NCBI GenBank assembly: GCA_947446025.1
Contig: CANFEY010000030.1
Location: 1 to 53,959 of the forward strand
Length of the DNA stretch: 53,959 nt
Source: Bryobacterales bacterium
Lineage (GTDB): Bacteria > Acidobacteriota > Terriglobia > Bryobacterales > Bryobacteraceae
Reading direction: 5' to 3'
Positions within the stretch are counted from its first letter, which is position 1; each line of letters opens with the position of its first letter. The position numbers and the translations under genes were made by a program. Below the pieces are notes generated by a model. It was not told the origin of the DNA, searched no databases, and saw nothing but the letters and a program-made list of their open reading frames with translations. Shown in pieces: positions 3,799 to 7,729 of the stretch.

Positions 3799-4515
3799 AT
3801 GCTCGCCACCGGCGCCGCGCTGGAACCAGCGTCCGATCCCGAAGCCCTGTACGCCCGTGTCTTCCGTGAAATGAAACCCCGCACCCCCGTGCCCGAAATC
3901 CGCGTCCAGTTCCGGCGCTACGCCAACGCCAACGCCCAGATCCGCCTGTACGGAGGCGTGCTGCTGGTGCGCATCGCCGATACGCTGGCCGCCGCTCCCT
4001 GGGATGTCCAAGAAGCGCTGGCCGAGATCTTGCTGTCTAAGCTCTTCCGCCGCCCTGTGCCGCCCAACATGCATGACCGCTACCGCCGCTATCTGAACCG
4101 CAGCGAGGTGCGCAAGACGCTGGACCAGGTCCGCAGCCTGCGCGGGCGCAAGCTGGTGGAAGATCCCCGCGGCACGCATCACGACCTGCTGCAGATCTTC
4201 GACGCACTGAACTTCCAATACTTCTTCGGTCTCATGGCGCGCCCCACGCTGGGCTGGAGCCGTCAGGCGTCTCGCACCCTGCTGGGCCACTACGATTCCA
4301 CGCACAACACCATCGTGCTGAGCCGCATCCTCGATCGCGCCGAGGTGCCGAGGCTCGCCGTTGAGTACGTCATGTACCACGAGATGCTGCACGTGCGGCA
4401 TCCGGTGGAGCACAAAGGTGCGCGCCGCTGCGTCCACACGCGCGCGTTCAAAGATGAGGAAACATTGTTCACCAATTTCCGTGAGGCGAAGCTGTTGTTG
4501 AGGCGCTTGGCATGA
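3799..4515 (+). CDS. SprT-like zinc metallopeptidase
   Basis: The 238-residue protein carries the zinc motif HEMLH (194-198, in VMYHEMLHVRH) and a downstream His in CVHTRAF (214) that can act as third ligand, the arrangement of SprT-like or gluzincin-type metallopeptidases. There is no signal peptide, so it acts in the cytoplasm. The N-terminal half (residues 15-120, rich in Arg) may bind a nucleic acid or protein partner; this is inference. The last 4 bp overlap the ubiX start (ATGA), implying translational coupling, although no functional link between the two is known. Confidence 0.75.
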   Translation: MLATGAALEPASDPEALYARVFREMKPRTPVPEIRVQFRRYANANAQIRLYGGVLLVRIADTLAAAPWDVQEALAEILLSKLFRRPVPPNMHDRYRRYLNRSEVRKTLDQVRSLRGRKLVEDPRGTHHDLLQIFDALNFQYFFGLMARPTLGWSRQASRTLLGHYDSTHNTIVLSRILDRAEVPRLAVEYVMYHEMLHVRHPVEHKGARRCVHTRAFKDEETLFTNFREAKLLLRRLA

Positions 4516-5084
4516 CCAGGATTATCGTAGGTATCAGCGGAGCAAGCGGCTCAGTGTACGGATGGCGCTTGCTCGAAAAGCTGAAGGGCCGCGCCGAGAC
4601 GCACCTGATTCTCACCCGTTCCGGCGAACGCACCGCGCACCTCGAAATGGGCAAAGCCGCCGCCGACTTCCGCGCCCTGGCAAACCACTACTATCCGGTG
4701 GAAGACATCGGCAGCAAGCTGGCCAGCGGATCGTCCGTGATGGACGCCATGGTGATTGCTCCGTGCTCCATTCACTCCATGTCGTCCATCGCGGCCGGCA
4801 TCAGCGGCAACCTGTTAGTTCGCGCCGCCGACGTCATGCTGAAGGAGCGCAAACGCCTGATCCTGATGGTCCGCGAGAGTCCGTTCCACCTGGGGCATTT
4901 GCGGTCGATGACGGCTCTGGCCGAGATGGGCGCGATCATTGCTCCGCCAGTGCCGGGCTTTTATCACCAGCCGAAGACGGTGGCCGATATCGTGGACCAT
5001 AGCGTGGACCGGGTGCTCGACTTGCTTGGGCTGCCAGATCCCGATGCGCAACGCTGGGATGGTACAAAAGGTAGTACACGATGA
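4512..5084 (+). CDS. ubiX: Flavin prenyltransferase UbiX
   Basis: The 190-residue protein matches UbiX/Pad1: GISGASGS (8-15) at the FMN site, the segment PCSIHSMSSIAAGISGNLL, and the active-site stretch RESPFHLGHLRSM. UbiX transfers a dimethylallyl group to FMN to make prenyl-FMN, the cofactor of UbiD-type decarboxylases used in quinone synthesis and aromatic metabolism. No ubiD is present in the window. It overlaps the metallopeptidase upstream by 4 bp and the ATPase downstream by 4 bp. The last residues (RWDGTKGSTR) abut a change in base composition, which may mark an insertion point. Confidence 0.95.
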   Translation: MTRIIVGISGASGSVYGWRLLEKLKGRAETHLILTRSGERTAHLEMGKAAADFRALANHYYPVEDIGSKLASGSSVMDAMVIAPCSIHSMSSIAAGISGNLLVRAADVMLKERKRLILMVRESPFHLGHLRSMTALAEMGAIIAPPVPGFYHQPKTVADIVDHSVDRVLDLLGLPDPDAQRWDGTKGSTR

Positions 5085-6283
5085 GTTTCCTTCGCAGCAT
5101 CACGCTCGACAACGTTCTCTCTTTCGGGCCAAACACGGAGCCGCTAAAGCTCCAGGACCTCAATCTTTTCATCGGCCCGAACGCTGCGGGGAAGTCCAAT
5201 CTTATCGAGGCGATTTCTCTTCTTCGGGCGGCACCTTCGTCCCCTTCCGGTCTAGACGTGCGCGGTGTTGTCCGGCAGGGCGGAGGTGTGGGCGAGTGGC
5301 TCTGGAAGGGCCAACTTTCCGGTCCTGTTATTGGAAAGGTCAATGCACTGCTAGAGGGGCTTGCTCCACACAAGCCGCTTAGGCATTTGCTTTCATTCCG
5401 AGACGATCAAGGCTTCTGCCTCGACGACGAAAGCATCGAAAACGAAAAGGCGATGGCCCACGAGACCGATGTCTATTTCTACTATCGATTCCAGAAGGGG
5501 AAGCCGGTGGTAAATACGACGGAGGTAAATAACAAGGAGTCGAAAAGGCGGTTCTTAGCTCGCGAAACAATTGACTCGACATCGTCCATTCTTGCTCAAA
5601 GACGAGACCCAGAATTGTATCCGGAACTCACATATCTTGCGGAGAACTACGAGAAGGTACGGATCTATCGGGAGTGGGGGTTTGGTAGAAACACCGTCGT
5701 TCGGCAGCCACAACGGTCCGACATGCGCAATGACCGTCTGGAAGAGGACTTCTCCAACCTTGGTCTCGTCCTTTCTCGACTCCGCAGAAACCCGCAGACG
5801 AAGAACAAGATCGTGAAGGAATTGTGCGCGCTATATGACGGCGTAACAGATTTCGAGGTCAATATCGTGGAGGGTGGCTCCGTGCAGGTTCTGATGACGG
5901 AGGGGATGTTCAACATCCCCGCGACACGATTGTCTGACGGCACGATGCGCTATCTCTGCCTTCTGGCGATTCTTTGTGATCCCTCCCCTCCTCCCTTGAT
6001 CTGCATTGAGGAACCCGAACTAGGTCTGCACCCGGATATCTTGCCGCGCCTGGCTGACCTCCTGGTGGACGCTTCTGAGCGCACCCAATTGATCGTCACC
6101 ACACATTCTGACGTACTGGTGGACTGCATGACAGACCGCCCTGATTGCGTGGTGGTCTGCGAAAAGCATGACGGGAAAACCGAAATGCACAGGCTCTCGA
6201 ACGACAAGCTCAAGGTTTGGCTGGAGAACTACCGGCTTGGCCAGTTGTGGTCTATGGGTCATCTGGGAGGAAACCGGAATTGA
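5081..6283 (+). CDS. OLD-like AAA ATPase (putative defence component)
   Basis: The 400-residue ATPase of the SMC/ABC-like AAA_21 type has Walker A GPNAAGKS (32-39), an ABC-like signature RLSDGTMRYL (283-292), Walker B LICIEEPELGLHP (306-318) and a switch His in TTHSDVLVD (340-348). The C-terminus LWSMGHLGGNRN is typical of ATPases paired with DUF4276 proteins. Start ATG overlaps the ubiX stop (ATGA). Base composition is clearly less GC-rich than in neighbours, which suggests transfer. With the next gene it forms a two-gene cassette like OLD/PARIS-type antiphage systems; the defence role is inference. Confidence 0.85.
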   Translation: MSFLRSITLDNVLSFGPNTEPLKLQDLNLFIGPNAAGKSNLIEAISLLRAAPSSPSGLDVRGVVRQGGGVGEWLWKGQLSGPVIGKVNALLEGLAPHKPLRHLLSFRDDQGFCLDDESIENEKAMAHETDVYFYYRFQKGKPVVNTTEVNNKESKRRFLARETIDSTSSILAQRRDPELYPELTYLAENYEKVRIYREWGFGRNTVVRQPQRSDMRNDRLEEDFSNLGLVLSRLRRNPQTKNKIVKELCALYDGVTDFEVNIVEGGSVQVLMTEGMFNIPATRLSDGTMRYLCLLAILCDPSPPPLICIEEPELGLHPDILPRLADLLVDASERTQLIVTTHSDVLVDCMTDRPDCVVVCEKHDGKTEMHRLSNDKLKVWLENYRLGQLWSMGHLGGNRN

Positions 6284-6885
6284 GCGCAAGGATTTTCGTG
6301 GAAGGCGGCGGCCCAACCCGGGCGCTGCAAGGCCCCTGCCGAATCGCATTCACTGCCCTGCTAGAAAATTGTGGATTTCGCCGTCCACGGATGCCCCAAG
6401 TGATCGTTTGCGGCACAAGAGAAGAGACCTTCAAGCAATTCAAGCTGGCACAGGCAGAAGCGCACGAAGGTGAATTCGTTGCACTGTGGGTGGATAGTGA
6501 ACAGCCCGTGGATGACGTAGAGCAACCATGGGCGCATCTTAGGCGTCATGCCGCCCATTGGGTGCCCCCTGTTGGAACCGGTGAAGACCAAGCGTTCCTA
6601 ATGACGACGTGCATGGAAACTCTCATCGTCGCGGATCGAGCCATGCTTCAGGATCACTTCAAGAAGAAATTCAAAATGGCCGCACTACCAACCACGGACT
6701 TTGAAGAGATTCCGCCCGCTGCGATTCTGGAAAAACTAAAGAATGCCACCAAGGAATGCTCGAAACGTTACTCCAAGGGCGACCAGTCTTTCACCCTGCT
6801 GGGCAAACTGAATCCATCAACCCTGGAGGCGCACCTTCCCAGCTTCGCGCGCACGCGCCGCATCCTCAATCAGAAGCTACACTAG
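6280..6885 (+). CDS. DUF4276 protein (possible Toprim-like effector)
   Basis: I place the start at TTG 6280, which overlaps the ATPase stop (TTGA) and has a GGGAGG ribosome site at 6265-6270; an ATG 63 bp upstream would lie inside the ATPase gene without need. The 201-residue product has the hallmarks of DUF4276: FVEGGGPTRAL near the N-terminus (E8), LWVDSEQPVDD (D72, E74), DQAFLMTTCMETLIVADR (103-120), and a C-terminal KGDQSFTLLGKLNP. The spaced E...DxE pattern resembles a Toprim metal site, so a nuclease role is plausible but unproven. Lower GC is shared with the ATPase. Confidence 0.82.
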   Translation: MSARIFVEGGGPTRALQGPCRIAFTALLENCGFRRPRMPQVIVCGTREETFKQFKLAQAEAHEGEFVALWVDSEQPVDDVEQPWAHLRRHAAHWVPPVGTGEDQAFLMTTCMETLIVADRAMLQDHFKKKFKMAALPTTDFEEIPPAAILEKLKNATKECSKRYSKGDQSFTLLGKLNPSTLEAHLPSFARTRRILNQKLH

Positions 6886-6895
6886 TGCATAACAC

Positions 6896-7729
6896 ATGAC
6901 AGCCGCATTCCAAGGCGAGCTTGGCGCGTTCAGCCAGCAAGCCATCGCTCAACTCCTGGGACCCAAAGCCCGCCCATTCCCGTGCCCGCAGTTTGACGAC
7001 GTGTTTGCGGCGCTGGCCGACGGCAACGTGGACGCCGCGGTCATTCCCATCGAGAACACGCTGTACGGCTCGATCCACGGCAACTATGACCGGCTGCTGA
7101 AGCATGACTTCGTGATCACCGCGGAAACCCGCGTCCGCATCGTCCACAACCTGATCGCGCCTCCGGAAACCAACTTCGCCCAGGTGCGCAACGTCTACTC
7201 GCATCAAGTGGCGCTGGACCAATGCCTCGATTTCTTCGCCGACAACAAGCAGATCCAGCGCGAGACGTTCTATGACACCGCGGGCAGCGTGAAGATGGTG
7301 ATGGAAGAGAGGCCGCCTGCCTCGGCCGCCATCGCCAGTGAACTCGCCGCGAAGATCTACAAGGGCCGGATTCTCAAGCGTGGTATTGAGGATGATCGCG
7401 AGAACTTCACACGCTTTTTCCTGCTGGAACACCCCGGAGCCAAGCCCCGCGGCGGGACAGCACGCTCGTCGAAACCATGGAAGACGTCGCTGGTCTTTAC
7501 GACGCACAATACCCCGGGAGCGCTCTTCCGTGCGCTGAGCGCGCTGGCGTTGCGAGACCTCAGCCTCACCAAGATTGAATCGAGACCGCTGCGCGGCAAG
7601 CCTTGGGAGTATCTCTTCTACATCGACCTCATCGGACGCTCTGAGGACAAAGTGGTCAAGAACGCTCTGTCCCACCTGGGCGAGTTGTGTGATTTTCTGC
7701 GGGTGCTCGGGACTTATAGAGAGGCGTAG
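6896..7729 (+). CDS. pheA: Prephenate dehydratase
   Basis: This 277-residue enzyme converts prephenate to phenylpyruvate in phenylalanine synthesis. It shows the N-terminal AFQGELGAFSQQA, the PIENTLYGSI motif, the catalytic ENFTRFFLL, and a C-terminal ACT domain (about 195-272) with the ESRPLRGKPWEYLFYID phenylalanine-binding signature. It is a stand-alone dehydratase with no chorismate mutase domain. It starts 10 bp after the DUF4276 gene with no clear ribosome site, so it may depend on read-through from the inserted cassette. Its TAG stop overlaps the first bases of a palindromic repeat (7728-7868). Confidence 0.95.
   Translation: MTAAFQGELGAFSQQAIAQLLGPKARPFPCPQFDDVFAALADGNVDAAVIPIENTLYGSIHGNYDRLLKHDFVITAETRVRIVHNLIAPPETNFAQVRNVYSHQVALDQCLDFFADNKQIQRETFYDTAGSVKMVMEERPPASAAIASELAAKIYKGRILKRGIEDDRENFTRFFLLEHPGAKPRGGTARSSKPWKTSLVFTTHNTPGALFRALSALALRDLSLTKIESRPLRGKPWEYLFYIDLIGRSEDKVVKNALSHLGELCDFLRVLGTYREA

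Follow-up and report, generated by a model that had tools for sequence, protein, structure and literature searches.

What is the two-gene cassette that stands between ubiX and pheA in a Bryobacterales bacterium (GenBank assembly GCA_947446025.1, contig CANFEY010000030.1, positions 1 to 53,959 of the forward strand; this whole 53,959-nucleotide stretch is referred to below as the window)? The cassette encodes an ATPase and, downstream of it, a small protein of family DUF4276, and a preliminary description made from the sequence had presented the two as a candidate phage-defence unit whose pairing had no name. Profile matches make it nearly certain that the pair is HEC-01, a candidate system listed in PADLOC, and the cassette is probably a horizontally acquired two-gene anti-phage module on the plan of PARIS and OLD, in which a sensor ATPase would restrain a Toprim nuclease. 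This reading draws on the genes and their overlaps, their pairing, the predicted fold, residue conservation, the absence of the cassette from the same site in relatives, and an association with restriction-modification (R-M) and BREX operons.

Identity of the cassette

The ATPase matches the PADLOC model HEC-01A (PDLC04177) at 1.5e-165, with residues 2–399 aligned to positions 3–392 of the 393-position profile, and the DUF4276 protein matches HEC-01B (PDLC04201) at 1.6e-56 over residues 2–199 of 201. Both models are matched near full length by adjacent genes in the listed order, so the pair corresponds to HEC-01, and the earlier view of a nameless pairing does not hold. The Pfam assignments are above threshold for both proteins, as had been expected (AAA_21, 1.6e-32, 114 bits against a cut-off of 27; DUF4276, PF14103, 5.8e-10, 40.2 bits against a gathering cut-off of 30.2); no NCBIfam model exceeded its cut-off for either. 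The open reading frames (ORFs), overlaps and motifs first described, FVEGG and DSE included, were recovered at exactly the same coordinates (Table 1). Both frames are open across their full length; the ATPase start codon ATG and the ubiX stop TGA overlap within the 4 bases ATGA, and the DUF4276 gene starts with TTG at position 6280, in a 4-base overlap with the ATPase TGA (TTGA).

HEC stands for Hma-embedded candidate, a class that originates in the guilt-by-embedding study of Payne et al. 2024 (as cited in a passage of PMC12988326), and antiviral activity has been shown for several HECs, including HEC-06, according to the same passages of PMC12988326. HEC-01 itself is only a listed candidate: the literature searched yielded no paper describing how it works and no mention of DUF4276, and in the passages retrieved from it HEC-01 appears alongside phage only as a list item, for a match in Desulfovibrio piger. 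The window copy is embedded neither in Hma nor in another defence operon. Embedding gives the class its name and is not known to be a requirement of the PADLOC model. Among the 45 other called ORFs of the window there is no Hma match at 1e-10, and just one matches PADLOC at that threshold, to the candidate family PDC-M21B (9.6e-53), so that a defence island around the cassette is not borne out. The pair is genuine and was acquired horizontally; it belongs to a candidate family that is listed but undescribed, and is not a new kind of system. What is new here is the predicted fold of DUF4276, its proposed active site, the obligate coupling of the two genes and their embedding in BREX and R-M operons.

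Table 1. Coordinates of the cassette, its flanking genes and its motifs (positions in the window)
Feature	Position	Strand	Evidence or conservation
HEC-01A, OLD-type ABC ATPase (AAA_21)	5081..6283	+	400 residues; Pfam, PADLOC, AF2 model
HEC-01B, DUF4276 protein, predicted OLD-type Toprim nuclease	6280..6885	+	201 residues
ubiX, left flank of insertion	4512..5084	+	Pfam Flavoprotein 1.4e-42
pheA (prephenate dehydratase), right flank	6896..7729	+	Pfam PDT 2.1e-55, ACT 8.9e-9
Walker A GPNAAGKS (residues 32–39)	5174..5197	+	G37, K38, S39 in 69/69 rows
ABC signature RLSDGT (residues 283–288)	5927..5944	+	S285 69/69, D286 68/69
Walker B LICIEEPE (residues 306–313)	5996..6019	+	E311 69/69, E310 67/69
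H-loop TTHS (residues 340–343)	6098..6109	+	H342, S343 69/69
E8, proposed Toprim glutamate (like Bp OLD E400)	6301..6303	+	73/73 and 10/10 rows
D72-S-E74, proposed DxD motif (like D455/D457)	6493..6501	+	D72 73/73 and 10/10; E74 72/73 and at least 90% of 10-row set
E113, proposed metal-B ligand (like E508)	6616..6618	+	10/10 in pattern-free set; 73/73 where search pattern required E113
K166, proposed catalytic lysine (like K562)	6775..6777	+	72/73 (one gap); 10/10

Predicted fold and proposed active site

The predicted model of the DUF4276 protein (pLDDT 96.5) has an OLD-type Toprim fold, and its eight best matches among solved folds are OLD, PARIS, GajA and Retron-Eco8, with the PARIS chain 0.3–1.8 Z under the OLD entries; structure comparison places the protein with OLD-type Toprims, in line with the Toprim-like partner suspected earlier. 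These best matches, the class 1 and class 2 OLD proteins, GajA and the OLD protein of Retron-Eco8, combine an ABC ATPase with a Toprim domain whose site consists of E, DxD, E and K/R, according to parts of PMC6755086 and PMC7049728. The roles proposed for the DUF4276 residues are assigned by analogy with Bp OLD, as described in part of PMC6755086, and the equivalence follows residue order and spacing only; the position like E404 of OLD is P12 in the window protein.

A genome scan found 307 DUF4276 relatives; the best 80 of them, together with one locus from a scan of viral contigs, make up the set of 81 loci. The 73-row DUF4276 alignment consists of 72 of these and the window, nine having been dropped as near-copies or cut. 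As the loci were found with peptide patterns requiring M112, E113, W115 and D119, the conservation of these four residues in that alignment is by selection; a second set of 10 rows, found by profile with no motif pattern, is independent of this bias. At residue 115 the window protein has leucine where the other 72 rows have tryptophan, and it is the exception in the 10-row set as well (W115 in 9 of 10). An hhalign comparison of DUF4276 with 10 OLD sequences was not significant (Prob 0.2%); the OLD classes diverge beyond sequence alignment, according to a passage of PMC7049728. The protein has no match to Pfam OLD-like_TOPRIM, none in a sequence search of the PDB, where its profile gave only chance matches (best 0.04), and none by tblastn in plasmids or phages. 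On the strength of the model, DUF4276 is likely a Toprim nuclease, which would act on a nucleic acid target.

The ATPase carries the complete Walker A, signature and Walker B motifs first noted in it, with near-invariant motif residues across a 69-row alignment (the window and 68 loci, after removal of two more rows whose N-termini were long), and a D-loop, GLHPD, whose H317 is identical in all 69 rows, the window included. Its AF2 model (pLDDT 92.9) has a head of the SMC/Rad50/PtuA type, and the OLD-like reading of the ATPase is supported. The ATPase tail has a conserved pattern, LGxLWxxGxLGGxRW. Residue 400, at the C-terminal end, is asparagine in the window, where 67 of the 69 rows have tryptophan.

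The window copy might be a decaying passenger without present function, as L115, N400 and P12 at conserved sites and the interrupted appearance of both copies in another member of the genus (G015) would suggest, but its frames are full length with all proposed catalytic residues intact, and its deviations at columns conserved in at least 90% of rows (3 of 41 and 3 of 99) compare with medians of 1 and 2 and maxima of 8 and 10 in the other rows; we consider decay unlikely.

Pairing, neighbourhoods and named relatives

The ATPase lies directly upstream of DUF4276 in 79 of the 81 loci, the other two being cut by contig ends, and the pair is obligate; the window and these 79 loci have two genes, not the single polypeptide that defines class 1 OLD. 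In 86 of 88 pairs, drawn from the 79 loci and nine acidobacterial loci with one locus present twice, the first base of the DUF4276 frame immediately precedes the ATPase stop codon; the count includes near-copies (L063/L064, and L042 and L126, which are one locus). The junctions are GTGA in 72, GTAA in 8, GTAG in 4 and TTGA in 2, and with a GTA codon the start must lie elsewhere. Such constant overlap argues for tight translational coupling of the two genes. Of 72 loci tested, 37 have the ATPase start no more than 100 bases behind a co-directional upstream gene. Neighbour counts are approximate, given the crude longest-first script that was used to call ORFs.

In some relatives the pair is embedded in known defence operons. 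The order in one locus (L066) is type I methylase, an unassigned gene, specificity subunit, the pair and type I restriction enzyme, which places the pair between HsdS and HsdR; another (L115) reads BrxA, BrxB, BrxC, the pair and PglX, a viral contig (L136) reads BrxC, the pair and PglX, and in an acidobacterial locus (L045) the pair is followed by PglX. A DndH/SspH-like protein of 1822 residues stands upstream of the pair in L128. N6_Mtase genes occur near 7 of 40 loci, against 0.67 expected from their genome-wide density (P ~7e-6, among the matches listed); these loci, mostly with long flanks, were chosen after R-M neighbours had been seen in some, and three second pieces of frames already entered were left out. 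This density test replaces a tblastn panel of R-M, BREX and Dnd-like proteins, biased by queries taken from the pair loci themselves, which matched 20 of the 81 pair loci and none of 40 control regions, leaving 61 of the 81 loci without a match; for stretches of at least 10 kb the figures are 18 of 60 and 0 of 25. PADLOC points the same way: all 151 immediate neighbours of the 81 loci, scanned as 75 and 76 proteins, gave 118 and 159 families at 1e-10, and a control of 76 proteins, out of 180 candidates in the same genomes, gave 52, although family counts are redundant and the control contained HEC-01A, HEC-01B, three mad3-like and two AriA-like matches. The embedding and the N6_Mtase excess support a link of the family to known defence operons.

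Several of these neighbourhoods hold further genes. The 636-residue protein between methylase and specificity subunit in L066 (4722-6629; homologue in L090) has a weak match to a pAgo model (1.3e-14), and a 389-residue protein without Pfam or PADLOC match lies between a specificity-subunit-related gene and the pair in another type I R-M operon (L069:7631-8797). In a Desulfobulbaceae locus, proteins of 281 and 1433 residues follow the pair (L128:10609-15762; relatives in L124), with no Pfam match at 1e-5 and no PADLOC match at 1e-10; this neighbourhood is possibly a larger undescribed system. In an acidobacterial locus (L060:6847-10618), the ATPase start overlaps the mutL stop by 4 bases, the same arrangement as with ubiX in the window.

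Two overlapping genes would also suit a type IV-like toxin–antitoxin or selfish addiction pair, as the Pfam note on AAA_21 (putative AbiEii toxin) might be taken to imply, and so would insertion at unrelated places and a patchy spread (HEC-01B in 12 of 396 genomes of the phylum at E 0.001, window included, some matches being weak and one reaching only 2e-4). AbiEii is a nucleotidyltransferase. The AAA_21 part of the window protein is an ABC ATPase head and not a nucleotidyltransferase, and the excess beside N6 methylases is a defence signature, which leaves an addiction pair improbable.

Among named systems, PARIS has separate ATPase and Toprim genes, as HEC-01 does, and its trigger-and-release architecture would fit. 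AriB is a DUF4435 protein, for which PF14491 was used, and the window partner matches DUF4276 only, the 201-residue protein having no Pfam DUF4435 match and no AriB model match at E 1. In PARIS, as described in part of PMC12409363, a hexamer of the ATPase AriA holds AriB, and triggers such as phage Ocr free an AriB dimer, whereupon tRNA is cut. OLD, GajA and Retron-Eco8 keep both domains in one polypeptide, some with a GajB helicase or a retron (in passages of PMC10568477), whereas the window has two genes and neither partner. The gene after the cassette is pheA, and no other window ORF matched GajB (UvrD-like helicase) at 1e-10.

RloA/RloB pairs are AbiL-like. An ATPase recognised by the HEC-01A profile lies directly upstream of RloB in 12 of 12 loci (L177, L224–L233, L236) and of DUF4435 in 2 of 2 (L221, L222), with RloB loci L234 and L235 and DUF4435 locus L223 standing outside these counts. 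The motifs E, DxD, CxExW and YxK of RloB and DUF4276 align in order, but the two belong to different Pfam families, with no RloB (PF13707) match for the window protein, and their hhalign comparison is not significant (Prob 2.6%, P 0.018); OLD against RloB gave P 0.0064. The window ATPase resembles MAD3 of MADS (4.4e-22), but at 78.8 bits against a cut-off of 420, and no other window ORF matched MADS at 1e-10; the partner in Septu is the HNH protein PtuB, that in the window DUF4276. In passages of PMC12839542 that do not name HEC-01, the number of BREX and related taxa with nucleases linked to OLD-ABC ATPases is put at 1242 or more; the TOPRIM-linked nucleases are the most prominent, and the linked nucleases in BREX loci are read as backup suicide effectors.

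The Toprim subunit could also stay bound and cut phage DNA directly, as in OLD or Gabija, instead of being released to cut host tRNA. The OLD entries lead the fold matches, but the PARIS chain follows by just 0.3–1.8 Z, ATPase and Toprim are encoded separately, as they are in PARIS, which allows release, and insertion into BREX and R-M operons fits backup suicide as argued in part of PMC12839542. A permanently bound nuclease has a substantial chance of being right, though short of even, and the target may be tRNA or DNA.

Transfer, and a possible gated mechanism

The site itself argues for arrival by transfer. A ubiX match is present in 22 of 23 genomes of the genus, and in 16 of them pheA follows ubiX with the cassette absent, the gap between the tblastn matches being -1 to 54 bases in 15 and 220 in one; four have a divergent ubiX (45–49%) and no pheA in the 2.7–3.6 kb fetched. 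The genome closest by ubiX (G019, 85%) has neither cassette nor pheA at the ubiX site and has a YcaO gene instead; that gene lies on the reverse strand between ubiX and a threonine synthase-like gene (L040:3059-4897), and in G019 the window pheA finds its best match on another contig, at only 35% identity. HEC-01B was found in 2 of the 23 genomes at E 0.001, window included, some genomes being incomplete. The other is G015, which carries two pairs at other sites and a ubiX–pheA site (L009) without cassette; both of its pairs (L243:8613-10246 and L244:8633-10295) look interrupted, and the second lies close behind succinate dehydrogenase genes (sdhB).

The cassette is also less GC-rich than its flanks, as noted at the outset, with 54.8% against 61.4% for ubiX and 60.6% for pheA. 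It falls 3.3 standard deviations (SD) under the genome-sample mean of 61.5% (SD 2.0), which comes from 208 windows, each 1805 bases long, across 20 stretches of the same genome; 2 of the 208 are equally low. The junctions, compared as 90-base stretches, share no exact repeat of at least 7 bases. The pair spans many bacterial phyla and methanogen-related archaea, and the ATPase tree mixes phyla (25 label changes against a possible minimum of 13, which the tool warns is not proof of transfer); the window row falls outside any well supported group, its top identity being 64% to a Prosthecobacter sequence. By tblastn the ATPase matched four phage records; in two, the alignment spans 91% of the protein with 27.8% identity. 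We read the cassette as a solitary transfer, and its composition and distribution suggest that the event was recent.

A chromosomal DNA repair or cell-cycle ATPase–nuclease, like Rad50–Mre11 or the archaeal OLD-family ATPase Cran1, would be expected to look different: 21 of the 23 genus genomes, some incomplete, gave no HEC-01B match, GC content is low, and the pair is embedded in BREX and R-M operons elsewhere. So patchy a distribution makes a housekeeping role unlikely, and repair is very improbable.

For the anti-phage module preferred here, a gated effector is the best guess, by analogy with PARIS and OLD. The OLD-type ABC ATPase would act as sensor and restraint, and DUF4276 as a small Toprim nuclease with an OLD-type two-metal site (E8, D72xE74 and E113) and the lysine K166; the overlapping stop and start would couple translation, so that no nuclease is made without its ATPase. 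The trigger would be a phage protein or a DNA structure that arises during infection; on detecting it, the ATPase would release or switch on the nuclease, which would cut nucleic acid and stop the infection, probably at the cell's cost. HEC-01 fits the PARIS and backup-suicide plan because its ATPase and Toprim genes are separate and apparently coupled, and lie partly inside systems that phage anti-restriction proteins attack; within the BREX and type I R-M operons of some relatives, the pair may serve as a reserve for when the primary defence is blocked. The window copy is solitary, and co-expression with ubiX and pheA is probable.

A broader reading is tentative, and rather doubtful as a whole: that DUF4276 forms a third, as yet undescribed class of stand-alone OLD-type Toprim effectors alongside AriB and RloB; that HEC-01 guards against phage proteins disarming BREX and type I R-M, which would explain why it is placed between BrxC and PglX or between HsdS and HsdR; and that it spreads as a promoterless two-gene cassette. 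Such a cassette would land directly downstream of host genes and rely on their transcription and, where a 4-base overlap exists, on their translation too. Examples would be the copies behind ubiX in the window, behind mutL in L060 and near sdhB in G015.

The predicted fold, the proposed active site and the genomic rationale of a backup in BREX and R-M operons make an undescribed database candidate testable as an ATPase-gated nuclease, and the OLD/PARIS theme may gain one more effector. Such systems can also live outside defence islands, beside housekeeping genes, where island-based searches would miss them.
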